Source: Proteiniphilum saccharofermentans
Lineage (GTDB): Bacteria > Bacteroidota > Bacteroidia > Bacteroidales > Dysgonomonadaceae
Direction: 5' to 3'
Length of the DNA stretch: 64,000 bases
Assembly: GCF_900095135.1 (NCBI RefSeq)
Contig: NZ_LT605205.1
Coordinates: 2,480,001-2,544,000, forward strand
Below, piece by piece: positions 16,960-43,617 of the stretch. The notes under the pieces are model-generated. The model did no database searches. It was not told where the DNA came from and worked only from the letters and a program-made list of their open reading frames with translations. Every line of letters begins with the position of its first letter. Position 1 is the first letter of the stretch. Made by a program: the position numbers and the translations under genes.

Positions 16960-17081
16960 CAAAATAAATTTCGCGGTTAAGCAAGAGCATTGGTCAAACA
17001 AGTTTGATTATGCCATTAGCAACAGCAAATTTACAAAGTGAATCTAATTTATTGGTAAAAATTAAAATTCAAAACAAAGAT

Positions 17082-20855: not shown

Positions 20856-20868
20856 ATAAGATCATAAA

Positions 20869-22695
20869 ATGAAGAAACATATATTTTATACGCTACTTAT
20901 TGTCGTGCTCGTCTCAGTCGGTTGCGACGATATATTGGATCGCCCCCAGAAAACAAAAGCCAATGATGAAACGTACTGGAGGAGCGAATCCGATTTCCGT
21001 TTATATGCAAATGAATTTTATACGCAGTATTTTGTGGGGTACAGCGCGAGTTGGGGGGTGGATTATGCTCCTCTACGCGGCTATTATTTTTCTGACGATG
21101 TGGCTTATACCGGTACGCAAAGCAACCTGGAGAACGCCATTCCCTCAAGCCGCGGATCTACGTCATTGGCTTCTACCAGCGATCTCTGGCTCACCAAGTA
21201 CGCCAGCGCCACTTGGAACTTTGGATGGGTACGCAAAGTAAACATCATGATAGAACGTCTTGAAAAAGTGGGGGTTAATTATTTATCGGAAGAGGCTTAT
21301 AACCATTGGATGGGGGTAGCCCGTTTCTTTCGGGCCTTTGAATATCACCGTTTAGTCTGGTCGTTTGGCGATGTTCCCTATTATGGAACAACATTTTCAG
21401 AAGACAATTCAGACGAAATGTATAAAGACAGAACACCCAGAAAAGAAGTCATGGAGCATGTGTATGACGATTTACGCTTTGCTTTTGCCAATATCCGGAC
21501 AAATGATGGCGCAATGTACCTGAATAAAGACATTGCTGCTGGATTTATCACGCGCATCATGCTCTACGAAGGAACCTGGCAAAAATACCATAACATCAGC
21601 CAGGAAAACGCGAAGAAGTATCTTGAATTTGCCCAGGAAGCCGGCGATTATGTGATTGGGACAGGAAAGTACGCGATTTCAGGCGACTTCAGGAGTTTAT
21701 TTGGTTCGTTCGACTTAAAAGGTCATCCGGAAGTGTTAATGTACAGACATTATGACGCAGCCAATGCCACACACGCTGTGGCTTCCTATTCAAATGGAAG
21801 GGAATCTCAAAATCCATCCTCCAATTTGGCATTGGCAAAGGCCTTTATCTGCAATGACGGTAAACCGTACCAGACTTCAAGCGTTGCAAACGCCGACATT
21901 TTAGACATTACCAATATGATCAAAACGCGCGATCCCCGTTTCGAAGCTACTTTCTATAACTACCCTAAAATAGAGGCGTCCACGCTTTTGTATGCGTGCA
22001 AATTTATTTCGCGCGAAGGATCGTCTTGGGTTGGAACGCTACCTCCTCAATACGGGAGTATGACAAATACAAACGACTATCCCGTAATGCGTTATTCTGA
22101 AGTATTGCTGAACTGGATCGAAGCGAAAGCCGAACTGGAGACATTAGGTGGAACGGCAGTAACCCAGGCAGATATAAGCATATCTATCAATGCCATACGC
22201 AACAGGCCTTTGGATAATGAAGCCATTGCATTGGGCGTTCAACAAACAGCGGCAATGGATTTGGCTCTTATCAATGATTCTTTTGATCCTGCACGGGATA
22301 GCGATGTTCCGGCCCTTATTTGGGAAATTCGCCGCGAACGCCGAATGGAGTTCGTATATGAACACACCCGTTTAGCCGACATTCGACGTTGGAAAAAACT
22401 GGAATATATGGATAACAATAAATATCCGGATACGATGTTGGGGTTGTGGATTGATATAGCCAATGAACTACCCACTTATCTCGTTACGACCACCAGGGTA
22501 ATGAAAGCTGATGGAACCATCGTGACATACAACGGCTCAAATGCAAGCGATATGGTGGGATTCTACATCCCAACAAACGCAAATGCAAGGGACTTATTCG
22601 GGGATTTTAATTACCTGGCGCCTGTAGGAAAAGCACAAATAGAGCAGTATGCCGATGCCGGCTATACTTTGACACAAACCGCCGGATGGTTTTAA
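20869..22695 (+). CDS. SusD/RagB-family glycan-binding lipoprotein
   Basis: This 608-residue protein begins MKKHIFYTLLIVVLVSVGC with a lipobox Cys at residue 19, then DDILDRPQKTKANDETYW, the usual SusD opening. It has the TPR-like helical pattern and the conserved late segment PALIWEIRRERRMEFVYE with RLADIRRWKK, seen in nearly all SusD proteins. It is displayed on the cell surface as the lid of the SusC transporter encoded 13 bp upstream. A strong terminator follows it. Confidence 0.96.
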   Translation: MKKHIFYTLLIVVLVSVGCDDILDRPQKTKANDETYWRSESDFRLYANEFYTQYFVGYSASWGVDYAPLRGYYFSDDVAYTGTQSNLENAIPSSRGSTSLASTSDLWLTKYASATWNFGWVRKVNIMIERLEKVGVNYLSEEAYNHWMGVARFFRAFEYHRLVWSFGDVPYYGTTFSEDNSDEMYKDRTPRKEVMEHVYDDLRFAFANIRTNDGAMYLNKDIAAGFITRIMLYEGTWQKYHNISQENAKKYLEFAQEAGDYVIGTGKYAISGDFRSLFGSFDLKGHPEVLMYRHYDAANATHAVASYSNGRESQNPSSNLALAKAFICNDGKPYQTSSVANADILDITNMIKTRDPRFEATFYNYPKIEASTLLYACKFISREGSSWVGTLPPQYGSMTNTNDYPVMRYSEVLLNWIEAKAELETLGGTAVTQADISISINAIRNRPLDNEAIALGVQQTAAMDLALINDSFDPARDSDVPALIWEIRRERRMEFVYEHTRLADIRRWKKLEYMDNNKYPDTMLGLWIDIANELPTYLVTTTRVMKADGTIVTYNGSNASDMVGFYIPTNANARDLFGDFNYLAPVGKAQIEQYADAGYTLTQTAGWF

Positions 22696-22743: not shown

Positions 22744-22780
22744 CGGTGATCCGAGAATGATTAGCAAAATAGAAGAAATA

Positions 22781-25081
22781 ATGAAAAAAGAATCTATACA
22801 ATTTAATCTGTTCTTTGTATTGTTTTTATCCTTTTCAATCGGACTCCAGGGACAAAAGAAACATAAGGATATCGAAAAGGATTTTTTCCCTTTTTCCGTA
22901 TGGTACAGCGGTGGCAAAGCCCGGGCTCCTATGCTGTCTGCAATTACGCCTCGTTCTACGGATGAATGGACAACCGATTTGAAACAGATAAAAGATCTTG
23001 GGTTTAATACCGTCCGTACTTGGGTTGAGTGGGCTGCTTGCGAACCGGAACCGGGAAGATATAATTTCGACAATTTACACCTTCTGATGCGGATGGCTAA
23101 TGAAGTAGGACTAAAAGTATTTATACAGATCTATGTGGACTCAGCCCCGGACTGGGTTGCCCACAATCACCCACACGCACTGTTCGAGACACAGAGTGGA
23201 CATAAAGTACATCCGCAATCAGCTCCCGGAGCCTGTATGGACAACAAAGCGGTAGAAGATGCCATACTCAACTTTTACTCGGAAACAGCCAAAGTAGCTA
23301 ATTCGTATCCCAATTTATTCGGATGGGATTTGTGGAGTGAACCACATATCATCAACTGGGCGTCCCTCAATTATATTCCTAATGTCCAATTCTGTTTCTG
23401 CGAGGGGACACAGACAAAGTTTAGGAAATGGCTTGAGAAAAAATATCACACTCTCGAAAATTTAAATACGGCTTGGTACCGCAATTTCACTGACTGGACA
23501 CAAGTAGAAGCTCCCAGATTCAGTACAATTTTAAGTTATACCGACTTTATTGACTGGAAAACTTTCATATACGAAAAACTGGTGGAAGACATGCAAGCCC
23601 GTTATAACGCAATAAGAAAAGTCGATACAACACACCTCATTACCGCCCATGCTGTCGGGGCATCTCTCTTTCAATCTCCTCACGTAGGAGCCGGTGCCAC
23701 TGATGACTTTTTAATGGCCAGGCCATTGGATTACTATGGCGTTTCAATCTATCCAAAACACAATAACCCTCAATACGCCTGGTCGGTGACCACACTTCGT
23801 ACCGTGATGGATTTTATTAGAAGTGCAAACCGGGAAAAAGGAGGATGGTATGTAGGGGAACTGCAGGCCGGATTGGGAACCGTAGCACTTCAGGTGAGCG
23901 ATCCGGTCACTTCTGACGACCACCGCATATGGATATGGTCGGCTATTGCAAAAGGAGCCAAAGGAGTGAATATCTATGCTTATTACCCCATGTCATCCGG
24001 ATATGAAGCGGGAGGATACGGCTTGATCAATCTGGATGGGACCATCACAGAGAGGGCTGTCAATGCGGGACAAATAGCTGATGTGGTAAACCGCAATCAA
24101 CAGCTTTTCCTGAATGCCACCCCCGTCAAGGCTGAAGTAGGGATCGTCTACAATCCACTGACTCAAATGGTGGGAGGTATGCAGCGTCAGGATTTCCCCG
24201 GGGCTTTAAACCAGTCGCTGATCGGTTACTTCCAAACATTTGCCAATTACAATATACCTGTAGATTTTATACACAGAGAACATATTGAAAAACAAGATTT
24301 TTCACAATATAAACTGATCATTATCCCCTATCCGATCATGTTTACCAGGAAGGCTGCCGCAGGTTTACGAAACTTTGTAGAAAATGGAGGATATGTATTG
24401 GCTGAGGCGCGTATTGGATGGAATGACGATCGGGGTTATGCATCAGAAATTATCCCTGGCCTCGGAATGCATGACATATTCGGGGTAAGGGAAGATGAAA
24501 TCAGAATGCGTGATGATATCAGGTTTACCATAACAAATGAAAATCATCCCGCTCTACAAGGTTTTGATGAAAATAGCAAACTTACAGGATCATTGTATGT
24601 ACAGTCGTTAAAACTGCTTGACAACAGTGATGCAAAGATTTTAGCCAGCACCGGGCAAGGGCAACCCACCATTGTAAGCAACCGATACGGGAAAGGAGAA
24701 TCTATGCTGGTAGGAACTTATATGGGAATGGCCAACTTCTCGAAAATCAATCCTGATAATGACAAATTCTTTGTCAACTTATTGAATTGGGCAAAGATCG
24801 AAAGGCCTTTCACTACAACCCTTGACGGACGGAGCTCAAATCAGGTGGAAGTCAGGCTTCAGGATAAAAAGGATGGTTATCTCCTTTTTATCATCAACCA
24901 CAGCAGCGAAAGTGAAGAAATCGGTGTAGAGCTAAATATAGGCTCAAACGGTACATACACTGTGCGGGATATTATCAATGAAACGATAAAAAAGGCATAC
25001 AGCATCGATAATAAATTGATTATCAATTCTCGTATCGACAGTAAAGGTATCCATATCATAGAATTAACCGCAGACAAGTAA
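22781..25081 (+). CDS. GH42-like secreted beta-glycosidase
   Basis: From the ATG at 22781 the protein is 766 residues with a signal peptide (FFVLFLSFSIGLQGQ). A TIM-barrel domain matches the GH42 beta-galactosidase family: NTVRTWVEWAACEPEPG, then GWDLWSEPH with the likely acid/base Glu187, and WYVGELQAG with the likely nucleophile Glu360. A trimerisation/GATase-like domain follows (about 445-650; KLIIIPYPIMFTRKAAAGLR) and a beta-sandwich tail. The family includes beta-galactosidases, but secreted GH42-like proteins of PULs can have other specificities. The start at 22730 would lie in the terminator stem and is rejected. Confidence 0.88.
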   Translation: MKKESIQFNLFFVLFLSFSIGLQGQKKHKDIEKDFFPFSVWYSGGKARAPMLSAITPRSTDEWTTDLKQIKDLGFNTVRTWVEWAACEPEPGRYNFDNLHLLMRMANEVGLKVFIQIYVDSAPDWVAHNHPHALFETQSGHKVHPQSAPGACMDNKAVEDAILNFYSETAKVANSYPNLFGWDLWSEPHIINWASLNYIPNVQFCFCEGTQTKFRKWLEKKYHTLENLNTAWYRNFTDWTQVEAPRFSTILSYTDFIDWKTFIYEKLVEDMQARYNAIRKVDTTHLITAHAVGASLFQSPHVGAGATDDFLMARPLDYYGVSIYPKHNNPQYAWSVTTLRTVMDFIRSANREKGGWYVGELQAGLGTVALQVSDPVTSDDHRIWIWSAIAKGAKGVNIYAYYPMSSGYEAGGYGLINLDGTITERAVNAGQIADVVNRNQQLFLNATPVKAEVGIVYNPLTQMVGGMQRQDFPGALNQSLIGYFQTFANYNIPVDFIHREHIEKQDFSQYKLIIIPYPIMFTRKAAAGLRNFVENGGYVLAEARIGWNDDRGYASEIIPGLGMHDIFGVREDEIRMRDDIRFTITNENHPALQGFDENSKLTGSLYVQSLKLLDNSDAKILASTGQGQPTIVSNRYGKGESMLVGTYMGMANFSKINPDNDKFFVNLLNWAKIERPFTTTLDGRSSNQVEVRLQDKKDGYLLFIINHSSESEEIGVELNIGSNGTYTVRDIINETIKKAYSIDNKLIINSRIDSKGIHIIELTADK

Positions 25082-25105
25082 ATATCAAATAGAAGGGGTT
25101 AGTCC

Positions 25106-26065
25106 ATGGCTGTAATAAGTATTGATTTAGGAGGCACTAAAATTACAGGCGCTCTTTTTGATGAAAATGGCGAAATATGCTGTAGGGTATCTCATCTTCT
25201 GGAAAAGAGGAAAGGAGACGAGGTTGGACTGCTGGTATTGAATGTAATCGACACGTTAATTGAGCAATCCGGGTGCCAGAGAGAGGTCATTGAAGCGTTG
25301 GGTATTTGTGTTCCGGGTATAGCGAACAGCAAAACGGAACTAATATGGGCACCCAACATCGATTGGGAAAATTATCCGCTCCGGAAGAAAATAGAAAATC
25401 ATTTAAAAAATGACCCGATTGCAATTAAGATTGCCAGTGACAGAACATGTTATATTTTAGGGGAACATTGGAAAGGTACCGCAAAAAATACCACGAACGC
25501 AGTCTACCTTTCAATTGGTACAGGGATAGGTGTTGGACTCCTGATTGATGGGAAGATCATCCATGGACATGGAGATATAGCGGGAGCTGCAGGATGGTTT
25601 GCCATGGGAACCCCCTATTCAGAAGAATACAAAAAATATGGATGTTTTGAGAGTTACGCGTCAGGAGACGGTATTGCCCGTCAGGCAAAAAAGATTTTGA
25701 GAGAAGGGCATCTGTTTAAAGGAAGTTCATTATACAAAAAAAATATCGAAGAGGTTTCAAGTAAAGATATTTTTGAAGAATTTTATAAAGATGACCCGCT
25801 TGCTATATCTGTTATTGAAAAAGCGATTGATCTTTGGGCTATGGCTTCTGCCAATTTAGTCAGCCTGTTAAACCCTGAAATGATTATATGGGGCGGGGGC
25901 GTGTTCGGCCCGGCCACAGAATTAATAGGCCGTATTTATGAAAAAGCTTCCAGATGGGCACAGCCCATTGCGATAAAGCAGGTAAAATTCGAAAAGTCAA
26001 TTTTACAGGGGAACGCCGGACTATACGGCGCCGGTTATCTGGCGCTTACATCAAGAACAAAATAA
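25106..26065 (+). CDS. ROK-family sugar kinase lacking the zinc cysteine cluster
   Basis: This 319-residue protein has the ATP-binding DLGGTKITGALFD (residues 7-19), the catalytic Asp in SDRTCYILGE (Asp112), and the ROK pattern SIGTGIGVGLLIDGKIIHG. In standard ROK kinases the next part is EIGH...CxCGxxGCLE. Here it reads AGAAGWFAMG and PYSEEYKKYGCFES, so the zinc-ligand His (Trp164) and two of three Cys are absent; only Cys180 remains. It probably phosphorylates the monosaccharide released by the PUL. Glucokinase, N-acetylglucosamine or N-acetylmannosamine kinase are all possible. It lies 24 bp after the GH42 gene. Confidence 0.88.
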   Translation: MAVISIDLGGTKITGALFDENGEICCRVSHLLEKRKGDEVGLLVLNVIDTLIEQSGCQREVIEALGICVPGIANSKTELIWAPNIDWENYPLRKKIENHLKNDPIAIKIASDRTCYILGEHWKGTAKNTTNAVYLSIGTGIGVGLLIDGKIIHGHGDIAGAAGWFAMGTPYSEEYKKYGCFESYASGDGIARQAKKILREGHLFKGSSLYKKNIEEVSSKDIFEEFYKDDPLAISVIEKAIDLWAMASANLVSLLNPEMIIWGGGVFGPATELIGRIYEKASRWAQPIAIKQVKFEKSILQGNAGLYGAGYLALTSRTK

Positions 26066-26077
26066 CAGCAGGATTGC

Positions 26078-27238
26078 ATGGGATACAATAAAACTTTGGT
26101 GTATATAGCAGCCTGTATAGGCATGGCTTTTTTCGGGGTTGCATTTATTGTCATGGGCGCTGTTTTGCCCTCTTTAACCGCAACATATTCTCTCGACGCA
26201 GTAGGTTCATCTTCTTTGGTATCTCTGCTGCCTGTAGGGGTATTGGCAGGTTCACTGCTGTTCGGGGTCATCGTCGACAGGTACGGATATAAATTGTTAC
26301 TCGTAGTAAGCACGCTGTTTACTTTGTCGGGGATCGAAGGTTTGTCGTTTTTTGAGAACCTGAATATTTTACGTATCTGCATATTCCTTATCGGTCTGGG
26401 TGGAGGGATGCTGAACGGATCTACCAACGCACTTGCGTCTGATATTTCGAATGACAGGGAACGGGGCTCAAGACTGAGTATTCTTGGGGTCTGTTACGGT
26501 ATAGGTGCATTGGGGGTACCTCTTTTATTGGGTATGCTATCCAAAACATACAATTATCAGTTCATATTGCAATGCACCGGATTGGTGATGCTTTTATCCG
26601 TTCTTTATTTTATTGCGATAAAATTTCCCGAACCGAAAATCAAACAGGGATTTCCTTTTAAACAGGCTATCCGGTTAATCAAAGAGCCCTTGCTCCTGAT
26701 AATGGGCTTTTTCCTCTTTTTCCAAAGTGGCATAGAGGGTCTTACGAATAACTGGACTACCAGCTATCTCGACGGAAGAACAGCAATCGGTAGTGACGAG
26801 GCGGTGCTGTGCCTCACATTCTTTGTACTGGGAATGACTGTTTCCCGTTTAATATTGAGTTATTTATTACGTATTTTAAAACATGAATATATACTTTTGG
26901 GAGGAATTATGACAGCCATTATCGGGATAATTATTCTCGATTATGCCTATAATTTACAATTAGCGGCTATTAGTCTGTTTATTGCGGGATTTGGCCTTGC
27001 GGCAGGATTCCCGGTGATCATCAGCTATATAGGCACAGCATACAAAAATATAAGCGGGACAGCAATCGGTCTGGCAATGTTCATTGCATTGACTGGCAAT
27101 ACATTGCTGAATTTTACAATGGGATTTATTTCTGAAACATTTGGAATTTCATCCTTTCCGGTTTTTATTATTATTTTATTGTTGATACAGGGTATCATTC
27201 TCCTTACGAATTCAAAATCAATTAAAAATATCTATTAA
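26078..27238 (+). CDS. MFS sugar transporter of the PUL
   Basis: The 386-residue protein has twelve predicted membrane helices. It shows the MFS loop-2/3 motif in GVIVDRYGYKLLLV and a second-half equivalent. Helix-rich glycines (FLIGLGGGMLNGSTNALASD) resemble the FucP/GlcP-like sugar symporters. It lies between a sugar kinase (12 bp upstream) and a sugar isomerase (11 bp downstream), so it probably brings the released mono- or disaccharide across the inner membrane. Confidence 0.9.
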   Translation: MGYNKTLVYIAACIGMAFFGVAFIVMGAVLPSLTATYSLDAVGSSSLVSLLPVGVLAGSLLFGVIVDRYGYKLLLVVSTLFTLSGIEGLSFFENLNILRICIFLIGLGGGMLNGSTNALASDISNDRERGSRLSILGVCYGIGALGVPLLLGMLSKTYNYQFILQCTGLVMLLSVLYFIAIKFPEPKIKQGFPFKQAIRLIKEPLLLIMGFFLFFQSGIEGLTNNWTTSYLDGRTAIGSDEAVLCLTFFVLGMTVSRLILSYLLRILKHEYILLGGIMTAIIGIIILDYAYNLQLAAISLFIAGFGLAAGFPVIISYIGTAYKNISGTAIGLAMFIALTGNTLLNFTMGFISETFGISSFPVFIIILLLIQGIILLTNSKSIKNIY

Positions 27239-27249
27239 ATTTTACAATT

Positions 27250-28011
27250 ATGTTATCACTTGAATGGTTGGCAAATGCAAGGGGCATTATGCAAAAAATC
27301 GAAGAAACTCAGCTGGAAAATATCAAAGAGGCTGCATCAATAATGGCTGATAGTATTGAGTCAAACAACTGGGTACATACATTTGGTTGTGGACATGCCA
27401 CGATACCCGTGGAAGAAATGTATCCCCGTATTGGAGGTTTTGTCGGATTTCATCCTATGGTAGAATTGCCAATGACATTTTTCACCGGGATAACCGGACA
27501 AATGGGTATCCACCAGTTTTTATTCCTTGAACGTGCCGAAGGGTATGGTGATGCGATCATGAAAGCATACAATTTCAACGAGAAAGATTGTATCTGGATT
27601 TTTTCACACACAGGGATCAACAATGTGAACATTGACGTGGCTTTGAGGGCAAAGGAACTGGGAATGAAAGTGATTGTGTATGGATCCGCTGCCGAAGCCA
27701 AAGGTAAAGTAACCCGCCACCCAAGCGGGAAAACAATTTTCGAAATCGCTGATATTGTTGTAGACTCGTGTGTTCCCGTGGTAGATGCTTCCGTCAATCT
27801 GAAGAATCACCAGGACAAAATAGGCCCGGTATCTACGCTGGCATTTGTAACATTGGTCTGGATGACTGTCACTACTGTGGCTGAGATCCTGGCGGACAGG
27901 GGCGTTCAATTATTCATACATCCGTCACACAATGTTCCCGGTGATACCACTGCCCAGGAACGACTCGACGCTTGCCTTGCCGAATACAAGAAACGTGTTG
28001 CTTCGGTTTAA
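27250..28011 (+). CDS. SIS-domain sugar isomerase-like protein (UPF0309-like)
   Basis: The 253-residue protein carries one SIS domain: WVHTFGCGHATIPVEEM (about residues 40-56), IFSHTGINNVNIDVALRAKELG (about 117-138) and the late FIHPSHNVPGDTTAQERL. It resembles the stand-alone sugar-isomerase-domain family also called UPF0309. SIS domains bind phosphosugars, so with the ROK kinase two genes upstream it could isomerise, deaminate or cleave a phosphorylated (amino)sugar. The exact reaction is unknown. Tight spacing (11 and 15 bp) places it inside the operon. Confidence 0.87.
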   Translation: MLSLEWLANARGIMQKIEETQLENIKEAASIMADSIESNNWVHTFGCGHATIPVEEMYPRIGGFVGFHPMVELPMTFFTGITGQMGIHQFLFLERAEGYGDAIMKAYNFNEKDCIWIFSHTGINNVNIDVALRAKELGMKVIVYGSAAEAKGKVTRHPSGKTIFEIADIVVDSCVPVVDASVNLKNHQDKIGPVSTLAFVTLVWMTVTTVAEILADRGVQLFIHPSHNVPGDTTAQERLDACLAEYKKRVASV

Positions 28012-28026: not shown

Positions 28027-30525
28027 ATGAACAGTAACAAATCCCGATTTGGTATGGTAAAACTAAACATAACGCTGTTATTTATTTTTGTTTTCTGTAC
28101 AGGTCATGCCCAATCATCCTGGATACGTGTCAACCAGGTCGGCTATCTCGAAGACGATGTGAAAGTGGCCGTCTGGATCAGCAAGGAGAACAATGTTGTC
28201 CGCGAATTCCAGGTAATAGATCTGGCTACGAAAGAGACCGTATTTACAGGGTCCGATATCCGGAATACAGGGAAGCAGCCGGCATTCGAATCATCGGCAA
28301 GGCTTAATTTCACGGCACTCAAAAGGCCGGGTAGTTACATCGTGAAAGTGGGCGAAACAGAATCCGTCCCATTCTGTATTGGCAACGATGTGTATGCCGG
28401 GGCAGCGGATATCCCGTTAAAGTACATGCGCCAACAACGATGTGGTTACAACCCTTTCCTCAAAGACTCATGCCATGTGCACGATGCCATTTCCGTAGGT
28501 GATCCCGAAGGAAAGCGGGACGGACTCTATTTTAATACTGTCGGCGGATGGCACGATGCGTCGGATTACCTGCAATACGTGACTACGTCCGCCAATGCCG
28601 TCTATCAAATGCTCTTTGCATACAGCCAACATCCCGGATCATTTTCAGACAGGTATGATGCAAACGGACATGAAGGAGCAAACGGCATTCCCGATATCCT
28701 GGACGAAGCCAAATGGGGATTGGATTGGTTGGTGAAAATGAATCCCGACGCCGATACCTATTTCAACCAACTGGCTGACGACAGGGATCATGTGGGATTT
28801 ACATTGCCCAACGAACAGAAGGTCGATTACGGCTGGGGGCCGGGAAAAGAACGCCCCGTCTATTTTGTCAGTCCCAAACCGCAGGGGTTGTTCAAGTATA
28901 AGAACAGGAGTACCGGAATGGCTTCCACCTTAGGAAAATATGCCTCTTCATTTTCTTTGGGCGCTAAACTCCTGGCCGACTATTACCCCGAATTTTCCGA
29001 TTTGTTAGCGCAAAAAGCACAGGATGCCTATCACAAAGGCGCTGAAAACCCCGGGGTTTCACAAACAGCCCCCGGGGGAGCGCCCTATTTCTATGAAGAG
29101 GATAATTGGGCCGACGACATGCAGCTGGCAGCCATGGAAATGTACAATTCTACCGGACAAAAAGAGTATCTGACACAAGCAATCAATTATGGCAGGTTGG
29201 AGCCTGTAACCCCTTGGATGGGCGCCGATTCGGCTCGTCATTATCAATGGTACCCGTTCGTAAACCTTGGCAATTATCATTTAGCGGCACAGCATGGCAA
29301 TCTACGCGCTCAAAAAGAGTTTATACGAAATATGAGGACAGGCTTGCAACGGGTAAAAGAACGGGCTGAAGGGGATGCTTTCCTGAACGGAATACCGTTT
29401 ATCTGGTGCTCCAATAACCTGACGGTAGGTTTTATTACCCAGTGCAGATTATACCACGACATCACAGGCGATGATTCATTTCTTGAAATCGAAACCGCCA
29501 TGCGCGACTGGCTGCTGGGATGTAATCCATGGGGTACCTCCATGATTGTGGGATATCCCGAACAGGGTGACACACCGACAGATCCGCATTCAGCGTTCAC
29601 ACACCTCCACCGGATACCGGTCACAGGAGGCATAGTAGACGGCCCCATTTATCACTCTATTTTCAGTAGTTTAATCGGTATCTATCTGACAAATGAAGAT
29701 GAATACGCCGATTTTCAGTCGGACTATGTGGTATACCATGATGATTACGCCGATTATTCTACCAATGAACCGACTATGGATGGAACCGCCTCGCTTACTT
29801 ATTATCTGGGTTATCTGAGTGCACAGGCAAAGCTAGCGAAAAAAGTAGCAGGAGGTATCGTACGCGGCGATACATCCAAAAAACAACTGTCGCTTGTTTT
29901 TACCGGCCACGAATATGCCGACGGAGCCAGGAAAATACAAGAAGTGCTGAAAAAAAATAATATAAAAGGCACATTCTTCCTCACCGGCGATTTCTACAGG
30001 AAATACCCCGCCATTGCAAGGGATCTCCAGAAGGACGGCCACTACCTTGGACCACACTCCGACAAACATCTTTTGTATGCAGACTGGAAGAACCGTGATT
30101 CGACCCTGATCTTACGGACTGATTTCGAAAAAGATCTGAATGATAATTATCAGGCGATGGAAGAAATCGGATTAAAAATTGAATCTCCACGATACTTTAT
30201 GCCACCCTACGAATGGTATAATCAGGAAATAAGCAACTGGACCGAAGCGATGGGCGTACAAATAGTGAATTTCACCCCCGGTACAACTTCCAATGCCGAT
30301 TATACAACGCCTGATATGAAGAATTATCTTTCGTCGGAAACAATTTACAACAACATCCTGGCGTATGAAGAAAAGAATGGATTGAATGGCTTTCTACTCC
30401 TGGTCCATATTGGCACCGATCCGAAACGGATTGACAAATTGTACGACCGGTTGGAAGATATGATAAAGGAACTGAAAAAAAGAGGTTATGAATTTAAGAG
30501 AGTAGATAAACTATTGAAAGATTGA
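28027..30525 (+). CDS. GH9 glycosidase fused to a polysaccharide-deacetylase (CE4-like) domain
   Basis: This 832-residue protein has a signal peptide (LLFIFVFCTGHAQ), an Ig-like CelD-N domain (IRVNQVGYLEDDVKVAVW, about residues 33-120), and a GH9 catalytic domain. GGWHDASDY holds the catalytic base (Asp177/Asp180) and YSTNEPTMDG the acid (Glu581). From about 619 to the end lies a NodB-like deacetylase fold: LVFTGHEYADG replaces the usual TFDDG motif, while the metal-binding HSDKH (677-681), MPPYEWYN and LLLVHIGTDP are kept. GH9 includes cellulases and exo-glucosaminidases; the fused deacetylase suggests an N-acetylated substrate. An alternative start is 28054. Confidence 0.9.
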   Translation: MNSNKSRFGMVKLNITLLFIFVFCTGHAQSSWIRVNQVGYLEDDVKVAVWISKENNVVREFQVIDLATKETVFTGSDIRNTGKQPAFESSARLNFTALKRPGSYIVKVGETESVPFCIGNDVYAGAADIPLKYMRQQRCGYNPFLKDSCHVHDAISVGDPEGKRDGLYFNTVGGWHDASDYLQYVTTSANAVYQMLFAYSQHPGSFSDRYDANGHEGANGIPDILDEAKWGLDWLVKMNPDADTYFNQLADDRDHVGFTLPNEQKVDYGWGPGKERPVYFVSPKPQGLFKYKNRSTGMASTLGKYASSFSLGAKLLADYYPEFSDLLAQKAQDAYHKGAENPGVSQTAPGGAPYFYEEDNWADDMQLAAMEMYNSTGQKEYLTQAINYGRLEPVTPWMGADSARHYQWYPFVNLGNYHLAAQHGNLRAQKEFIRNMRTGLQRVKERAEGDAFLNGIPFIWCSNNLTVGFITQCRLYHDITGDDSFLEIETAMRDWLLGCNPWGTSMIVGYPEQGDTPTDPHSAFTHLHRIPVTGGIVDGPIYHSIFSSLIGIYLTNEDEYADFQSDYVVYHDDYADYSTNEPTMDGTASLTYYLGYLSAQAKLAKKVAGGIVRGDTSKKQLSLVFTGHEYADGARKIQEVLKKNNIKGTFFLTGDFYRKYPAIARDLQKDGHYLGPHSDKHLLYADWKNRDSTLILRTDFEKDLNDNYQAMEEIGLKIESPRYFMPPYEWYNQEISNWTEAMGVQIVNFTPGTTSNADYTTPDMKNYLSSETIYNNILAYEEKNGLNGFLLLVHIGTDPKRIDKLYDRLEDMIKELKKRGYEFKRVDKLLKD

Positions 30526-30660: not shown

Positions 30661-33600
30661 ATGAAAAGATCCGTTTTTATTCTATTCATCCTTGCTCTAT
30701 CTTATTCTGTTTTTTCACAGAATCCTGCCGACGATTCATTGAAACTGAAATTGAACAGTTCTCTCACCAATATCTATAAAGAAGTCATACTGCGTCCCGG
30801 AAGGGTTACGGTAGACAGTATTGTACTGAATGAACGGAAAAAGAGTATAGAGTTGCACACCAACCTGTCGCTATCATACCTCCCCATGCGGGAAAATACC
30901 GTACTGCATATCTATGACAGCGTACGCTACCACCTGCCTCCGGCACAGAAAAAATATCACATAAGCGTTTTTTCCGACGGACAGGAGATCAGCCACCTGA
31001 TCCCCAATTTCTTCCGGAGTAAGCAGAAAGACAAGAACCGGATGATCGCACACCGGGTAAAAAAACCGCTCGTCACCAATATCTCTTCTCCTATGGGAGA
31101 TTTCGACAAAGGATTGCAAAACAACCATATTGCACTGTGGCAAAGCCATGGTTGGTATTACGAGCAGAAACTGGGACGGTGGGAATGGCAGCGGGCACGT
31201 ATCTTCCAAACGGTAGAAGACCTTTACACACAGAGTTATGTCCTGCCGTTCCTGGTACCGATGCTTGAGAACGCGGGAGCGAACGTACTGATGCCACGCG
31301 AACGGGATTATAACAAAACAGAACTGATCATAGACAATGATAGTCCTGCAGAAGCGAACAACTCCGGCCAGCCTGCCAGATATGGCGATTCACACTATAA
31401 GGAAATCAATGGAAAAGAAAGATGGCAAAATACCGATTCCGCAGGTTTTGCCAATCCAAAAGAAATCTATCCGGATGGTGAAAATCCGTTCAGGATGGGA
31501 ACAGCCAGACAAATCAAGACAATAACCCGCGGTGAAGAGAGCCTCGCCGAATGGTATCCCGATATTCCCGAAAAGGGAAAATATGGTGTCTATGTATCCT
31601 ATCAAACAGTCAGGAACAGTACAGACGACGCGCTCTACAGCGTGTATCATGCCGGTGGAAGGACCGATTTCCGGGTCAACCAGCAAATGGGGGGCGGCAC
31701 CTGGATATTTCTGGGATATTTTTATTTCGACGAAGGAAATAATCATAAAATAACACTCACCAACAGGAGCAGCCGTGCAGGGAGGATTGTCATTGCCGAT
31801 GCAGTAAAAATAGGTGGGGGAATGGGAAATATCGCAAGAATGCCCCATCCCGACGGATTTGAAAAAGAAAATACAAAAAGTTCCGAAAAACAGGTTTCCA
31901 AGGAAACACTTATACCAAAGATCAACTATTCACCCGAGATAAGCGGCTACCCGCGTTATACCGAGGGAGCACGTTACTGGATGCAGTGGGCGGGCGTACC
32001 CGACAGCGTATACAACCGCACTGAAGGGAAGAATGATTATACCGACGACTATGCATCACGCGGTGCATGGGTGAACTGGCTGGCAGGTGGCTCGCCGGTA
32101 CTGCCCAAAGAAGAGGGGCTCAATATCCCTGTGGACATGGCTTTTGCTTTCCATACCGATGCAGGGACTTTCTGGGGAGATACCATAGTAGGAACACTCG
32201 GTATTTATATGACGCATTTTAACGACAGGTTATTCGAAAACGGAAGATCGAGATGGGCCTCGCGCGATCTCTCCGAACTGGTGATGGAAGAGATCGTCAG
32301 CGATATACGACGCGAATTCGAACCGGAATGGACACGCCGCCATCTCTGGAACCGTTCTTATGCCGAAGCGCGTATGCCTGACGTACCGACCATGCTACTG
32401 GAATTGTTGTCCCATCAAAACTTCGCAGATATGCGCTACGGGTTGGATCCCTCTTTCCGCTTTACCGTGAGCCGCTCCATCTACAAAGGGATGCTCCGCT
32501 TCCTGGCGAACCAGTACAACCGTCCCTACGTAGTACAACCACTTCCTGTAAAAGAGTTCAGCACCCGCTTCTCCGGCGATACGGAAGTAGAATTGAAATG
32601 GCAGCCATCGCCCGATCCCGCGGAACCGTCAGCCACTCCCACCCGGTATATAGTCTATACCCGCCTCAACGGTGGAGGATTCGATAACGGTGTGATGGTG
32701 AACAATAACAGTTATGTGGCATCCATACAAAAAGACACTGTTTACAGTTTTAAGGTAGTGGCTGTGAATGACGGTGGTATCAGCTTTCCCTCGGAGATAC
32801 TATCCGTATGCCGTAAAACGGGCCAGAGAGGGGAAGTCTTAATCGTAAACGGATTTACGAGGGTTTCCGCTCCGTTCAGTTTTACTACTTCCGAAGACAG
32901 CATCGCCGGTTTTGCAGGAAATGTGGACAATGGCGTACCCTATATTGCCGACCATCATTTTATAGGCCATATGCATGAATTCCGTCGCGTGATCCCATGG
33001 ATGGACGACGACGCATCGGGTTTCGGTGACAGCGGTGCGAATTACGAAACTACCGCAATTGCAGGTAATACTTTCGATTATCCCTTTATTCACGGGCAGG
33101 CCTTTGCCAAAGCAGGCTATTCATTTGTATCCTCATCTGTCGCTGCTATTGAAAATAAAAGCCTATCTTTAAACTCCTATAGTATTGTGGACTGGATACT
33201 GGGTAAACAACGGGAATGGTCGGTAGCACGGGGAGCAAAACCACCACGGTTCAAAACATTCTCCAAATCCAACCAGGAAGCTATTGCCAATTATTGTAAT
33301 AACGGCGGCAGCATCATCGTCAGCGGTGCTTTTGTGGGAACCGACCTGTGGGACAATCCGTATGCTTCAGCGGAAGACAGGGAGTGGGCACAAAACACCC
33401 TCAGATACAAATGGCGCAACAATTATGGAGCAGTAACCGGAAAGGTCAAAGCGGTGGCTTCGCCCTTCCCTTCCGTTCAGGGAAATTGGTCCTATTATAA
33501 TACCCTGAACAGTGAAAGCTATGTGGTGGAATATCCCGATGCCATTGAACCGGCAGACGAGAATGCCTTTACCGTCTTTCGCTATTCAGAGAATAATCTA

Positions 33601-33729
33601 AGCGCCGGCGTCATATATAAAGGAGAACAATATGGTACTGCCATACTGGGATTTCCGATAGAAGCCATAAAAGGCACGGAGAACCGGAATAAATTGGTGA
33701 GAGGACTGCTTGAAGCTTTGATTGATTAG
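30661..33729 (+). CDS. N-acetylmuramoyl-L-alanine amidase-like protein with inserted Xly/golvesin-type and Fn3 domains
   Basis: The 1022-residue secreted protein (signal MKRSVFILFILALSYSVFSQ) belongs to the group often annotated as xanthan lyase. It shows a split amidase-3-type domain. The first half has ALWQSHG (His163) and MPRERD (Glu214). The second half has AFHTDAG (His498) and MLLELLSHQNFADM (Glu581). These residues match the zinc ligands and catalytic Glu of cell-wall amidases. Between the halves lies a golvesin/Xly carbohydrate-binding-like domain (about residues 270-390; YGVYVSYQT, VIADAVKIGGG). A fibronectin III domain (about 625-715) and a C-terminal GATase-like domain follow. Its likely role is stripping stem peptides from peptidoglycan; xanthan degradation is unsupported. 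Confidence 0.82.
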   Translation: MKRSVFILFILALSYSVFSQNPADDSLKLKLNSSLTNIYKEVILRPGRVTVDSIVLNERKKSIELHTNLSLSYLPMRENTVLHIYDSVRYHLPPAQKKYHISVFSDGQEISHLIPNFFRSKQKDKNRMIAHRVKKPLVTNISSPMGDFDKGLQNNHIALWQSHGWYYEQKLGRWEWQRARIFQTVEDLYTQSYVLPFLVPMLENAGANVLMPRERDYNKTELIIDNDSPAEANNSGQPARYGDSHYKEINGKERWQNTDSAGFANPKEIYPDGENPFRMGTARQIKTITRGEESLAEWYPDIPEKGKYGVYVSYQTVRNSTDDALYSVYHAGGRTDFRVNQQMGGGTWIFLGYFYFDEGNNHKITLTNRSSRAGRIVIADAVKIGGGMGNIARMPHPDGFEKENTKSSEKQVSKETLIPKINYSPEISGYPRYTEGARYWMQWAGVPDSVYNRTEGKNDYTDDYASRGAWVNWLAGGSPVLPKEEGLNIPVDMAFAFHTDAGTFWGDTIVGTLGIYMTHFNDRLFENGRSRWASRDLSELVMEEIVSDIRREFEPEWTRRHLWNRSYAEARMPDVPTMLLELLSHQNFADMRYGLDPSFRFTVSRSIYKGMLRFLANQYNRPYVVQPLPVKEFSTRFSGDTEVELKWQPSPDPAEPSATPTRYIVYTRLNGGGFDNGVMVNNNSYVASIQKDTVYSFKVVAVNDGGISFPSEILSVCRKTGQRGEVLIVNGFTRVSAPFSFTTSEDSIAGFAGNVDNGVPYIADHHFIGHMHEFRRVIPWMDDDASGFGDSGANYETTAIAGNTFDYPFIHGQAFAKAGYSFVSSSVAAIENKSLSLNSYSIVDWILGKQREWSVARGAKPPRFKTFSKSNQEAIANYCNNGGSIIVSGAFVGTDLWDNPYASAEDREWAQNTLRYKWRNNYGAVTGKVKAVASPFPSVQGNWSYYNTLNSESYVVEYPDAIEPADENAFTVFRYSENNLSAGVIYKGEQYGTAILGFPIEAIKGTENRNKLVRGLLEALID

Positions 33730-33789
33730 AAGTGTGAAGTAGTCAAATCTATAATTTAAGAACACCTAAATTAGAATAAGTCAATTAGT

Positions 33790-33852
33790 TAATTAGTAAT
33801 TGGTAATTGGTAATTGGTAATTGGTAATTGGTAATTACTAATTGATAATTAA
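33790..33852 (+). repeat. TAATTNN heptad array, nine units (63 bp)
   Basis: Nine units in perfect 7-bp register: TAATTAG, five TAATTGG, TAATTAC, TAATTGA and TAATTAA. It lies 60 bp after the amidase gene and ends 13 bp before the preferred GT2 start at 33866. Confidence 0.9.
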
Positions 33853-33865
33853 AAAATCGGATTTT

Positions 33866-35347
33866 ATGCAAAAAATAAACGCCTTTATTCTTTTCACACA
33901 ACCTGAACAGGCAAGAAAAACAGTAGAAGAACTTAAACAGTCGGAACTGATACAAAATATTTATCTGCTTACTCCGGATGAAACTGTCACAACTTTGGAA
34001 GGTTGTGAAAAGATTATCATCGATAGACTGCAAAGCACGGAAACGATCAGAAAAATCGCCGGTAAATCTACTACCGGTCACACACTTATCTATCAGAAAC
34101 CGTCCGTCCTGAAACCGGGTTATTTTGCCCTTGAACGGATGACCCGCATTGCCGGAGATATGCAGGCGGGAATGGTATATGCCGACTATTACGCGGTTAT
34201 CGACGGCGAAAAAAAGAATCACCCCGTAATAGATTACCAGGAAGGAAGCCTGCGCGATGATTTCAATTTCGGGTCGTTACTGCTCTATAATGCAGACGCA
34301 TTCAAAGAGGCAGCAGCAAGGATGAATGAGGATTACCGGTTCGCCGGACTATATGACTTGCGGCTCAAAGTCTCACAACACCATCCGCTGATACATATCA
34401 ATGAATACCTTTACACGGAGATAGAAGAGGACAAACGTGCATCGGGAGAAAAAATATTCGATTACGTGGATCCCAAAAACCGGCAGGTGCAGATCGAGAT
34501 GGAACAGGCCTGCACTCAACACCTGAAAGAAGTGGGAGCCTACCTGGCACCACAATTCGAAGAAATCGAATTCAACAAAGATCATTTCGAATATGAAGCT
34601 TCTGTGATCATTCCGGTGCGTAACCGTGTAAAAACCATTAAAGATGCCATCGCATCCGTATTGAAACAGAAGACTGGTTTCCCATTCAATCTCATTGTGG
34701 TGGATAACTACTCTACGGACGGTACCACAGAGGCTGTCGACGAATTTAAAGATGATGAACGACTGATACATATTATCCCGGAGAGGGATGACCTGGGCAT
34801 AGGTGGATGCTGGAATCTGGGAGTACACCACCCGAAGTGCGGCAAGTTTTCCGTACAGCTCGATAGCGACGATGTCTACAGCGGTGAAGATACACTGCAA
34901 AAAATTGTCGACGCCTTCTACGAACAGCAGTGCGCCATGGTGGTAGGCACCTACCGGATGACCAACTTCCATATGGAGGAGATTCCACCGGGCATTATCG
35001 ACCATCGCGAATGGACACCTGATAATGGTCGGAATAACGCTCTGCGCATCAACGGGTTGGGAGCTCCTCGCGCATTCTATACGCCGGTACTGCGCGATAT
35101 CAAAGTGCCCAACACCAGCTATGGTGAGGATTATGCCCTGGGATTGAATATCTCACGGCGCTACCAGATAGGCCGCATTTATGATGTGCTTTACCTCTGC
35201 CGCCGTTGGGAGGATAATAGTGATGCGTCGCTCGATATAGTGAAAATGAACGCACATAACCTCTATAAAGACAGGATCAGGACATGGGAATTACAGGCAA
35301 GGAAGAAGGTGACAATTGACAATGGACAATTGAAAATTGAAAATTGA
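33866..35347 (+). CDS. GT2-type glycosyltransferase with a degenerate N-terminal half
   Basis: From the ATG at 33866 the protein is 493 residues. The C-terminal half (from about residue 245) is a clear GT-A family 2 domain: ASVIIPVRNRVKTIKDAIAS, VVDNYSTDGT, and the metal-binding QLDSDDVY. The N-terminal half has a similar strand-helix order with AGMVYADYYAV where a DxD could sit, so it may be a second, worn GT-A domain. There is no signal peptide or membrane helix. It sits between the amidase-like and SpoIID genes; its acceptor is unknown. The last codons (TIDNGQLKIEN) are encoded by a heptad repeat array. Confidence 0.88.
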   Translation: MQKINAFILFTQPEQARKTVEELKQSELIQNIYLLTPDETVTTLEGCEKIIIDRLQSTETIRKIAGKSTTGHTLIYQKPSVLKPGYFALERMTRIAGDMQAGMVYADYYAVIDGEKKNHPVIDYQEGSLRDDFNFGSLLLYNADAFKEAAARMNEDYRFAGLYDLRLKVSQHHPLIHINEYLYTEIEEDKRASGEKIFDYVDPKNRQVQIEMEQACTQHLKEVGAYLAPQFEEIEFNKDHFEYEASVIIPVRNRVKTIKDAIASVLKQKTGFPFNLIVVDNYSTDGTTEAVDEFKDDERLIHIIPERDDLGIGGCWNLGVHHPKCGKFSVQLDSDDVYSGEDTLQKIVDAFYEQQCAMVVGTYRMTNFHMEEIPPGIIDHREWTPDNGRNNALRINGLGAPRAFYTPVLRDIKVPNTSYGEDYALGLNISRRYQIGRIYDVLYLCRRWEDNSDASLDIVKMNAHNLYKDRIRTWELQARKKVTIDNGQLKIEN

Positions 35348-35360
35348 AAATTGAAAGTTA
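35313..35360 (+). repeat. AATTGA-type heptad array over the 3' end of the GT2 gene
   Basis: About seven 7-bp units (CAATTGA, CAATGGA, CAATTGA, then AAATTGA units) run through the GT2 stop codon at 35345-35347. The array supplies the last codons and the stop. A further short TAATTAA-like stretch precedes the SpoIID ATG. Confidence 0.85.
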
Positions 35361-35409
35361 AAAATGATATTCAACAACCCACAATCAACTATCAATTAGT
35401 AATTAAAAT

Positions 35410-36732
35410 ATGAACGCACCGCTGATTCATGTAGGCATATTATTGCAACAGCAAAAAATTGATTTTTCGCTGCCTGACGGTTATAAGTCGAACGGTCGGG
35501 AAATACAGCCGGGAGATTATTCGGTTGAAATCTCGGGGGAAAAGATCCTTTTCAAGGGGGAGATATCCGATGAACTCGTTTTCGAAGCCGATGATCTGCA
35601 TCACAATGCTTTCGGATTGAAAAATGTGATCATCGGCGTGCAATTTCATTGGGAACGAAAGGAAGATCAATATTTTTTGGGTAGCCTGAAATTTATCGTG
35701 GAAAACGGCAGTCTCTCGGCGATCAATATCGTTTCATTAGAAGATTACCTCACCAGTGTGATCTCATCCGAAATGAGTGCTACAAGTTCCGAAGAGCTGC
35801 TGAAAGCACATGCTGTCATCTCACGAAGCTGGCTGCTGGCACAGATACAAAAGAGCCAATCTCTTGAAAATTCAGAAACCGGTTACCGGACTTCGTTTGA
35901 AACACCTACAGAAATAGTCCGTTGGTACGACCGGGAGAATCACAATCGGTTCGACGTCTGTGCCGACGACCACTGCCAGCGCTACCAGGGAATCACCCGT
36001 CAATCCACCGAATTGGTAAAAAAGGTGATTCAGGAAACATGGGGAGAAGTCCTTTTCTATGACGGTGCCATCTGCGACGCCCGCTTCTCAAAGTGTTGCG
36101 GCGGCGTGATGGAAACATTCGAGAACGTATGGGAACCCGTAATACATCCCTATCTGCAGGCAAAACCCGACTATACTGAAGGTTCCCCCCTACCCGACCT
36201 GACCATCGAAGACAATGCGGAGGAATGGATCCGCACTTCACCTCCCGCTTTTTGTAACACACAGGATGCAAATGTATTAAAACAAGTGCTGAACGATTAT
36301 GACCGGGAAACAGCCGATTTTTATCGCTGGAAGACAATTTATTCACAGGAAGAACTGTCGGTTCTTATCAGAGAACGTTCCGGGATCGATTTCGGTGAGA
36401 TCATCGCCCTGCAACCGCTCGAAAGAGGTGCTTCCGGCCGTATCATCCGTCTGAAGATCATCGGCACGGAACGGGTGATGACGATAGGGAAAGAATTGGA
36501 AATACGGCGTACTTTATCGAAGTCGCATCTTTATAGTTCCGCATTCGTAGTCGATACACAGGACGAAGACGAGAACGGAATCCCGCAGACATTCATACTC
36601 ACCGGCGCCGGATGGGGCCATGGCGTAGGACTGTGCCAGATAGGCGCCGCCATCATGGCTGAGAAAGGATACGGCTATAATGAGATACTGGCGCATTATT
36701 TTCCTGCATCTGAAACAATTACTAATTACTAA
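35410..36732 (+). CDS. SpoIID/LytB-domain protein (probable peptidoglycan lytic transglycosylase)
   Basis: SpoIID cleaves glycan strands that have lost their stem peptides. This 440-residue protein has the core motif SLEDYLTSVISSEMSATSS with the likely catalytic Glu121, followed by ELLKAHAVISRSWLL. Later motifs are CQRYQGITRQST, ARFSKCCGGVMETFENVW and the C-terminal GAGWGHGVGLCQIGA. No signal peptide or membrane anchor is visible at the N-terminus (MNAPLIHVGILLQQQKIDF), which is odd for a cell-wall enzyme. It lies after the GT2 gene and just before an insertion element. Its stop codon is inside a heptad array. Confidence 0.9.
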   Translation: MNAPLIHVGILLQQQKIDFSLPDGYKSNGREIQPGDYSVEISGEKILFKGEISDELVFEADDLHHNAFGLKNVIIGVQFHWERKEDQYFLGSLKFIVENGSLSAINIVSLEDYLTSVISSEMSATSSEELLKAHAVISRSWLLAQIQKSQSLENSETGYRTSFETPTEIVRWYDRENHNRFDVCADDHCQRYQGITRQSTELVKKVIQETWGEVLFYDGAICDARFSKCCGGVMETFENVWEPVIHPYLQAKPDYTEGSPLPDLTIEDNAEEWIRTSPPAFCNTQDANVLKQVLNDYDRETADFYRWKTIYSQEELSVLIRERSGIDFGEIIALQPLERGASGRIIRLKIIGTERVMTIGKELEIRRTLSKSHLYSSAFVVDTQDEDENGIPQTFILTGAGWGHGVGLCQIGAAIMAEKGYGYNEILAHYFPASETITNY

Positions 36733-38600: not shown

Positions 38601-38601
38601 A

Positions 38602-39891: not shown

Positions 39892-39968
39892 GCTGAGTAA
39901 TCAGATAGTACGTTACGCGTGATAGTGCCTTCGGTGATATATACTGCGTATGATAATACCTGTGGCGA

Positions 39969-40031
39969 TAATTGGTAATTAGTAATTAGTAATTGGTAAT
40001 TGATAATTGATATTTAGTAATTGGTAATTTA
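39969..40031 (+). repeat. TAATTNN heptad array, nine units (63 bp), before namZ
   Basis: Nine units in 7-bp register (one reads TATTTAG) end 7 bp before the ATG at 40039. It has the same total length as the arrays at 33790 and 54390. Confidence 0.9.
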
Positions 40032-40038
40032 AAAAAAC

Positions 40039-41283: not shown

Positions 41284-41332
41284 TATAAAGTCAAATGGAA
41301 ATCCTGTTTATGTAACGCTATCATAGCAAAAA

Positions 41333-42505: not shown

Positions 42506-42581
42506 TAGCCAATTTCGTTGCGATAATGCACTATGGGCGATAATTAAAAGGAATTTACAAATTATCCATGGATTTTGCCAT

Positions 42582-43421: not shown

Positions 43422-43483
43422 ATTACTAATTACAAATTACTAATTTAAGTATACCAATCAATTAGCCACATTAGCACTACCTG

Positions 43484-43528
43484 TCCCGACTCGTCGGGAT
43501 AGTTGCTACTTGTCCCGATTCATCGGGA
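43484..43528 (+). repeat. Two tandem 16-nt palindromic hairpins
   Basis: TCCCGACTCGTCGGGA (43484-43499) and TCCCGATTCATCGGGA (43513-43528) are both perfect 7-bp stems with a TC loop, 29 bp apart. They differ by a paired C-G to T-A change that keeps the stem. They lie in the 196-bp murK-murQ gap with further AT-rich repeats. Confidence 0.75.
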
Positions 43529-43617
43529 TTGGCACATTTAACTACGCTTCGCTCCGTTGAACGTTGTTTGTCACATTAAATTAATCATCAAATTAGCAAA
43601 TCATCAAATCAATAGTC

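Follow-up and report, generated by a model that had tools for sequence, protein, structure and literature searches.

Enzymes of carbohydrate esterase family 4 (CE4) are described by the motifs MT1-MT5 (PMC10967932). Among them is PdaA of Bacillus subtilis (structures 1ny1 and 1w17), a deacetylase/transamidase of N-acetylmuramic acid (MurNAc) that has the base Asp D73, Thr71 and an MT3 Arg. The base Asp, the MT3 Arg and the beta1 Thr are all changed relative to PdaA in SwsB, the muramic-delta-lactam cyclase of B. subtilis, in which the MT5 His is essential (PMC12444981). PuuE has neither of the two MT1 Asp and does not depend on a metal, and BA0150 (4m1b) has been termed catalytically inert (PMC10967932). 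Escherichia coli SddA deacetylates N-acetylglucosamine (GlcNAc) of denuded peptidoglycan strands (PMC12440217), and DigH is specific for denuded strands (PMC12288456). In the GH9 exo-glucosaminidases VC0615 and PBPRA0520, long alpha1-2 and alpha9-10 loops close the pocket (PMC6096475), and in the archaeal chitin pathway a deacetylase is followed by an exo-glucosaminidase (PMC6566704). In Tannerella forsythia, the operon Tanf_08345-08385 is one transcript by reverse-transcription PCR (PMC5388701). Here we describe a gene in a stretch of 64,000 nucleotides from Proteiniphilum saccharofermentans (contig NZ_LT605205.1, positions 2,480,001 to 2,544,000; the whole stretch is called the window) that fuses a GH9 glycosidase to a CE4-like domain with a replaced motif 1. 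The CE4-like domain belongs to a real, conserved and widespread subfamily. In the open-licence literature we found no paper on a GH9 joined to a deacetylase, or one assaying or describing this subfamily. We favour, at somewhat less than even confidence, the reading that the protein is an exported two-module enzyme which would process the sugar backbone of peptidoglycan for scavenging, by means of a rebuilt CE4-like site and release by the GH9.

Results

The fusion and its altered CE4 motifs

The earlier note on this DNA had proposed a GH9 glycosidase fused to a deacetylase, and the fusion is borne out: all Pfam domains score over their cut-offs (Table 1; Polysacc_deac_1 over residues 614-746 has 61.2 bits, cut-off 23.1), the four motifs it had named (FTGHEYADG, HSDKH, MPPYEWYN and LLLVHIG, the last being residues 790-796) lie where it had placed them, and the arrangement recurs across relatives. 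The N-terminus resembles a signal peptide as judged by eye, and export is putative. In the AlphaFold2 (AF2) model of the whole protein the mean predicted local distance difference test score (pLDDT) is 85.9. At E 0.001 the 4.41-Mb genome holds no GH9 match besides this open reading frame (ORF). Within a family sample of 61 genomes, including that of the window, 29 matched: 18 are fused (including the window, and one cut by a contig end), five have adjacent genes, three have the GH9 only (one broken by a stop) and three the CE4-like gene only. A chance or frameshift fusion was rejected, since 17 of the 60 other family genomes are fused and five more have adjacent separate genes. An evenly spread phylum sample of 395 genomes gave CE4-like domain matches in 42; the sole match in G394 and a second match in G345 are weak, with 31-34% identity, and could represent ordinary CE4 domains. 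Stretches that encode a relative number at least 552.

The main alignment holds the window and 80 named loci (81 sequences) from a pattern-based locus search; L117 has an in-frame stop and an unreadable motif 1, and counts in motif 1 are therefore out of 80. Because the search patterns contained parts of motifs 2 and 3, these columns are biased in the 80-locus set; the motif 1 columns were in no pattern. A second set of 55 domains, one of them truncated, comes from the phylum and family searches and was found without motif patterns. Counts of neighbouring genes are raw counts in the fetched stretches, without a null rate for chance and with several contigs short; for several neighbour families Pfam was run on one cluster member and the others were assigned by clustering.

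In motif 1, F625, [DE]632 and G633 are invariant (80/80 each), residue 626 is Thr in 79 sequences and Ser in one, and residue 627 is Gly in 74, Ala in five and Ser in one; an Asp is found at neither 626 nor 627. Residue 628 varies (Asp in 41, His in 34, Gly in five), and because of this the exact letters FTGHEYADG were rejected as the conserved unit, which is F-[TS]-[GAS]-x4-[DE]-G. The altered motif in place of the expected TFDDG, which the earlier note had pointed out, thus stands as a fixed hallmark of the subfamily, whereas its exact letters do not. Random loss of the motif among homologues was looked for and not found in these sequences; only single letters vary. The remaining CE4 motifs had been called kept, which is true of the metal-binding His pair in HSDKH and of the MT5 His, but motif 3 is altered as well. 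Its usual Arg is absent from all 81 sequences (residue 725 is Leu in 53, Ile in 14, Met in 13 and Val in one) while Pro726 is kept in all, and the Gly following RPPY has become Glu (E729) in 81/81. H677, H681, E729, N732, D758 and H794 are invariant throughout the main alignment, which gives the domain the His-x3-His of MT2, the Asp of MT4 and the His of MT5 of CE4 enzymes. In the pattern-free set H677, H681 and E729 are found in 55/55, D758 and H794 in 54/54, and [DE]632 and G633 in 53/54 each; a divergent group there has the motif 1 F-S-A-D-x-A-F-E-G, and L055 has F-P-A-D-S-T-F-E-G. Residue 624, at the position of PdaA Thr71, is Val, Ile, Ala, Leu or Met in 80/80 readable sequences, and one of the 55 domains (L060) retains Thr. 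The loss of the base Asp and its Arg partner is subfamily-wide and not random. Because the MT1 Asp pair and the MT3 Arg are missing, we do not class the domain as a CE4 esterase; it is a variant of the NodB/CE4 fold.

Estimates by the Nei-Gojobori method of the ratio of nonsynonymous to synonymous substitution rates in five pairs gave 0.054-0.067 for the CE4-like part in four (the L066 pair was saturated) and 0.020-0.045 for the GH9 part in four (the L067 pair was saturated), values that are rough because synonymous sites are near saturation. They show that the CE4-like tail is under purifying selection, somewhat weaker than that on the GH9. In P. acetatigenes (L058 and L062, the same species) the GH9 has eroded to remnants, and the protein start and the full CE4-like domain are kept in one ORF of 327 residues. 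A second NamZ-like gene precedes this ORF.

Fold and likely chemistry of the CE4-like domain

Foldseek and VIA-align put the isolated domain, whose model shows the NodB fold (Table 1), among CE4 structures: BA0150 (Z 25.8), a BA3943 mutant (24.5) and PdaA (24.5, with a root-mean-square deviation of 2.0 over 204 residues). In a profile search 2j13 and PdaA ranked at the top; among solved sequences, peptidoglycan deacetylases of the PdaA type come closest. The domain keeps MT2, MT4 and MT5 like PdaA; unlike PdaA it has T626 in place of the base D73, V624 in place of Thr71 and M725 where PdaA has the MT3 Arg, and E729 and [DE]632 are new here. This gain of E729 and [DE]632, with the metal His pair retained, is the distinctive feature here. 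The strict conservation of the replacement residues suggests altered chemistry rather than decay; in known cases, loss of the Asp/Arg/Thr network goes with other chemistry. CDD has a gellan-lyase-like NodB entry and might already include this subfamily.

With no chemistry of its own, the CE4-like domain might be a pseudoenzyme whose task is to bind a glycan, either (denuded) peptidoglycan or a chitin-like one, and to offer it to the GH9. The MT1 Asp pair is gone in 80/80 readable sequences and the MT3 Arg in 81/81, and there are CE4 precedents in BA3943, labelled a CE4 pseudoenzyme in its entry titles, and BA0150 (PMC10967932). Moreover, the domain is usually tied to a GH9, which shares its ORF in 46 of the 80 loci (as remnants only in L062) and is encoded separately within the fetched stretch of a further 21 (adjacent in 19, further apart in 2); in 13 no GH9 is found in that stretch. 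However, the metal His pair, the MT4 Asp, the MT5 His and the new Glu are present in 81/81, more than binding seems to require, and the domain is kept alone or with other partners in L062, L068 and L031. We consider a pseudoenzyme unlikely, though it deserves real weight.

Another possibility is chemistry of the SwsB type, that is formation of an intramolecular amide (muramic-delta-lactam) or transamidation on muramic acid, not deacetylation. The replacements of the Asp by T626 (79/80, one Ser), of the Arg by Leu, Ile, Met or Val at 725 (81/81) and of the Thr at 624 (80/80) match the losses in SwsB, hence deacetylation must not be assumed, and the MT5 His, essential in SwsB (PMC12444981), is invariant here. 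In SwsB the three residues are Asn, Ala and Leu, there is an extra N-terminal domain, and the enzyme serves sporulation, not scavenging (PMC12444981). A fusion to a Golvesin/amidase-like protein, as found in L068, would parallel CwlD-PdaA. The NCBIfam matches of the window protein include PdaB, PdaA and YlxY, all far under their cut-offs. YlxY, which we take from its accession to be SwsB, is matched (TIGR02873) with 49.8 bits against a cut-off of 391.5. Against this chemistry, the locus is catabolic, a lactam would bar muramic acid from the MurK/MurQ route, and one of the 55 domains (L060) keeps the Thr at 624. These bacteria are not known to form spores, and we know of no counterpart of E729 or [DE]632 in SwsB, with which we compared by description only. 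We hold this alternative to be quite improbable, and turn to what the partner module says of the scavenging enzyme that we favour.

The GH9 module

In an alignment of 41 fusions, from which all GH9 residue counts are taken, the catalytic residues (Table 1) are intact in 41/41, and the module has the look of a normal glycosidase. A profile search gave 196 bits for the endoglucanase 3x17, 53.6 for PBPRA0520 (5dgq) and 56.9 for VC0615 (6gdt), a ranking with which Foldseek agrees; hence the two exo enzymes, which share the GH9 fold and are the GH9 enzymes known for action on glucosamine oligomers, are not the closest solved relatives. The suggestion that the GH9 might be an exo-glucosaminidase is weakened by this. 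By our own helix numbering of the DSSP string, the alpha1-2 linker of the AF2 model has ~48 residues and the alpha9-10 linker ~14, and the long alpha9-alpha10 loop of PBPRA0520 and VC0615 is not seen. In these enzymes no residue clearly accounts for the preference for the amine (PMC6096475), and we therefore infer exo action on glucosamine from the gene context and not from the GH9 sequence.

The endoglucanases as best sequence matches would suit a conventional cellulase of family GH9 whose tail, of the acetyl-xylan-esterase type, has decayed. However, the tail is conserved, not decayed, and no cellulase or xylanase was found among the 16 neighbouring genes scanned. Also, the Arg of the His-x-Arg of cellulases (NPHHR in 3x17), at position 523, is replaced by Ala in 32, Pro in six and Ser in three of the 41 fusions; we take His-x-Arg to be a substrate-site signature of GH9 cellulases. 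Such a cellulase is very improbable indeed.

Table 1. Features of the window and the evidence for each
Feature	Positions	Strand	Evidence
GH9-CE4-like ORF, 832 aa: putative signal peptide, CelD_N, GH9, CE4-like (NodB-fold) domain	28027..30525	+	ORF listing, Pfam
CelD_N Ig-like domain, residues 29-112	28111..28362	+	Pfam PF02927, 76.2 bits, cut-off 24.6
GH9 catalytic domain, residues 123-594	28393..29808	+	Pfam PF00759, 227 bits, cut-off 27.7
GH9 D177 and D180 (WHDASD; base and water-binding Asp, role by family homology)	28555..28566	+	both 41/41
GH9 E581 (STNEPTMD; catalytic acid, role by family homology)	29767..29769	+	41/41
CE4-like NodB-fold domain, residues 605-832	29839..30522	+	AF2 pLDDT 95.2, predicted TM-score (pTM) 0.92; VIA Z 22-26 to CE4 structures
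Replaced motif 1 FTGHEYADG, residues 625-633	29899..29925	+	alignment, 80 readable sequences
Motif 2 HSDKH, residues 677-681 (H677, H681)	30055..30069	+	81/81; 55/55 in pattern-free set
Motif 3 variant MPPYEWYN, residues 725-732, Arg lost, E729 gained	30199..30222	+	E729 81/81
Motif 4 Asp D758	30298..30300	+	81/81
Motif 5 His H794	30406..30408	+	81/81
SusC/SusD-type outer-membrane uptake pair	17004..22695	+	library scans of window proteins
GH42-like glycosidase	22778..25081	+	Pfam GH42, 158 bits
ROK sugar kinase	25106..26065	+	Pfam ROK
MFS transporter	26078..27238	+	Pfam MFS_1
SIS-domain sugar-phosphate isomerase-like gene, 15 bp upstream of GH9-CE4	27250..28011	+	NCBIfam PRK02947, 228 bits, over cut-off
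Golvesin_C 'xanthan lyase'-type protein, possibly amidase-like	30661..33729	+	Pfam Golvesin_C and fn3; no Amidase match of its own
Glycosyltransferase and SpoIID/LytB-domain protein	33866..36732	+	library scans
AmpG-like MFS, NamZ, DUF5009-like (MurT position), MurK-like kinase, MurQ-like etherase	38602..44439	+	Pfam and operon gene order

Gene neighbourhood in the window

The genes follow one another in the order FecR-like (by eye), SusC, SusD, GH42-like, ROK, MFS, SIS, GH9-CE4, Golvesin protein, glycosyltransferase, SpoIID, an insertion sequence (IS), AmpG-like, NamZ, DUF5009-like, MurK-like and MurQ-like. The gaps from SusC to GH9-CE4 are 11-82 bp with the start codons chosen, and 135 bp separate GH9-CE4 from the next gene. 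From 30661 to 44439 this order matches that of the T. forsythia operon, xanthan lyase-gtf-gtf-lytB-ampG-ybbC-murT-murK-murQ (PMC5388701), with one gtf in the window and, unlike the operon, the IS between lytB and ampG. The labels AmpG, MurT, MurK and MurQ are taken from the operon order; NamZ scores over its Pfam cut-off, DUF5009 at 19.5 bits lies under its cut-off of 25, and at E 0.001 Pfam finds nothing at the MurK position. The GH9-CE4-like gene of T. forsythia itself (L072) lies beside SusC-like genes, with no such operon genes in its 20.7-kb stretch. The GH42-like protein is weakly similar to an archaeal exo-beta-D-glucosaminidase (NF041127, E 2.5e-10, 39 bits against a cut-off of 1500). 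The Golvesin protein is possibly an amidase that an inserted domain interrupts. The genome was searched for AnmK without a match, and GlcNAc-anhydroMurNAc was for this reason disfavoured as the main product.

Some further observations concern the same genes. The logic of the GH42-like/ROK/MFS/SIS set (22778-28011) is like that of the archaeal glucosamine pathway. The L074 homologue of the Golvesin protein matches Amidase_3 with 21 bits, under the threshold of 27. The IS3-like element (family by eye) spans 36753-38031, between the SpoIID and AmpG-like genes, and has imperfect terminal inverted repeats with 26/34 matching; in L062 of P. acetatigenes these two genes are adjacent without an insertion, hence the element may separate transcription of the two operon halves. 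A FemAB-family protein (45837-46961) is encoded a short distance downstream of the MurQ-like gene.

Gene neighbourhood in relatives

A GHL10-type gene is found in nine of the 80 loci (L065, L066, L073, L086 and five Pontibacter; by clustering, with Pfam on L108 and L086) and also in L145; GHL10 is the DigH family. The five Pontibacter loci share DUF4397, GHL10, GH9, CE4, Amidase_2, phosphoesterase/PQQ, MurQ and SSF genes (Amidase_2 by Pfam on L087 only). GH9, CE4 and MurQ lie side by side in L145 and L146, and in G002 and G359 these three and a transporter-type gene (SSF by Pfam in L145) stand in a row. Among the 42 matched genomes of the phylum sample, MurQ is adjacent to the CE4-like gene in at least two (G002 and G359, of one genus), and it is 13 kb off in the window; in many genomes the two genes are far apart. 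Around the gene of Paludibacter (L076) lie NlpC/P60, an MR_MLE enolase-type protein, a Golvesin protein, a beta-lactamase-type protein, NamZ and GH20, and Cyclobacteriaceae L086 has CE4, GH9, ROK (in two pieces), MFS, SIS, MurK-like and GHL10 genes. G074 (L143) combines GH9-CE4 with GH18, ROK, MFS and SIS, and in Aminicenantes L128 a glucosamine-isomerase-type gene is divergent from CE4. Two loci have other fusions: L068 (150-3887) encodes in one ORF a signal peptide (by eye), the CE4-like domain and a Golvesin/amidase-like protein, followed by glycosyltransferase, NamZ, DUF5009-like, MurK-like and MurQ-like genes, and L031 (265-2172) fuses the CE4-like domain to a Beta-lactamase2-type domain. 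Six loci (L088, L104, L105, L119, L127 and L140; Pfam on L105) carry a Beta-lactamase2-type gene ahead of the GH9/CE4 gene. SIS matches of at least 66% identity occur in eight genomes, including that of the window, and lie within 5 kb of a CE4-like gene in three; of the other five, two have the CE4-like gene on another contig and three have none. In G074 and G353, too, the SIS gene lies close to CE4-like genes.

The link to the peptidoglycan operon might instead be incidental, with a substrate of the chitin type or some other exopolysaccharide, such as one that resembles xanthan or gellan. Such a substrate would agree with the GH18 that adjoins the gene in L143, with the GH9 xanthanase 6fhj among the fold matches, with the Golvesin_C domain of xanthan lyase in the downstream protein and with the 63 of 80 loci that have none of our six peptidoglycan probes (Golvesin, NamZ, MurQ, MurK, AmpG and SpoIID). 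However, MurQ, MurK, NamZ, amidase, GHL10 or NlpC/P60 neighbours recur in Dysgonomonadaceae, Paludibacter, Pontibacter, Cyclobacteriaceae and G002/G359, and the 'xanthane lyase' of T. forsythia lies within a MurNAc transcript (PMC5388701). We regard this substrate as rather improbable. The earlier note had GlcNAc polymers handled, and the context does point to a GlcNAc-containing glycan; the best-supported polymer is peptidoglycan, given the MurNAc/muropeptide operon, and not chitin.

Discussion

If peptidoglycan scavenging is indeed the task of this protein, amidases would first remove the peptides and leave peptide-free strands. The CE4-like domain would then work on the acetamido group of a sugar that bears no peptide, in all likelihood GlcNAc. 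Its His-x3-His metal site, MT4 Asp and MT5 His are kept, and E729 and/or [DE]632 may have taken over as base or third ligand. The GH9, an inverting glycosidase with base and acid intact, would next cut the resulting glucosaminyl bond. NamZ would remove MurNAc, which would pass to MurT/MurK/MurQ, and the neighbouring MFS transporter, ROK kinase and SIS isomerase would handle the amino sugar.

This scheme draws on the place of the GH9-CE4 gene, 135 bp upstream of genes in T. forsythia operon order, and on the survival of the CE4-like domain where the GH9 is eroded, with MT2, MT4, MT5 and E729 in 81/81. It also has precedents in the archaeal deacetylase/exo-glucosaminidase pair (PMC6566704) and in SddA (PF04748), a peptidoglycan deacetylase likewise tied to amidases; unlike our protein, SddA is of another Pfam family and keeps D31/D32, proposed metal ligands needed for activity (PMC12440217). 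A number of findings weigh against it. Both MT1 Asp are missing, and the catalysis we propose draws on sequence and analogy; SwsB, which has lost the Asp and the Arg as well, does not act as a deacetylase (PMC12444981), and the closest fold match by Z is BA0150, described as inert (PMC10967932). The GH9 is nearer to endoglucanases than to GH9 exo-glucosaminidases in sequence and fold rank, and its alpha9-alpha10 linker, short in the model by our helix numbering, is unlike that of the Vibrio exo enzymes. One or more of the six probes were found in only 17 of the 80 loci, and none in the fetched stretches of Pedobacter, Chitinophaga and Acidobacteria, those of the first two counting here. The GH18 of L143 makes chitin possible, and NagB is encoded elsewhere in the genome, which makes the SIS gene dispensable for that isomerase step.

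A bolder proposal, which we put forward as possible but doubtful, is that this NodB-fold subfamily, which occurs in Bacteroidota, Acidobacteria and Ignavibacteria as well as in other phyla, dismantled the Asp/Arg/Thr network of CE4 and built a new site at E729 and [DE]632. Together with a GH9 glucosaminidase it might form an unrecognised route of peptidoglycan catabolism, in which the amino sugar of peptide-free strands is modified and then cut by the GH9, which would stand in for NagZ and alternate with NamZ. Should the rebuilt site prove active, it would be an example of a NodB-fold enzyme that works, or switches its reaction, without the usual base, alongside the recent case of SwsB. An active site might also add a glucosaminyl-cleaving step to peptidoglycan scavenging in Bacteroidota, including MurNAc-dependent species, and it would give a functional lead for several hundred proteins.

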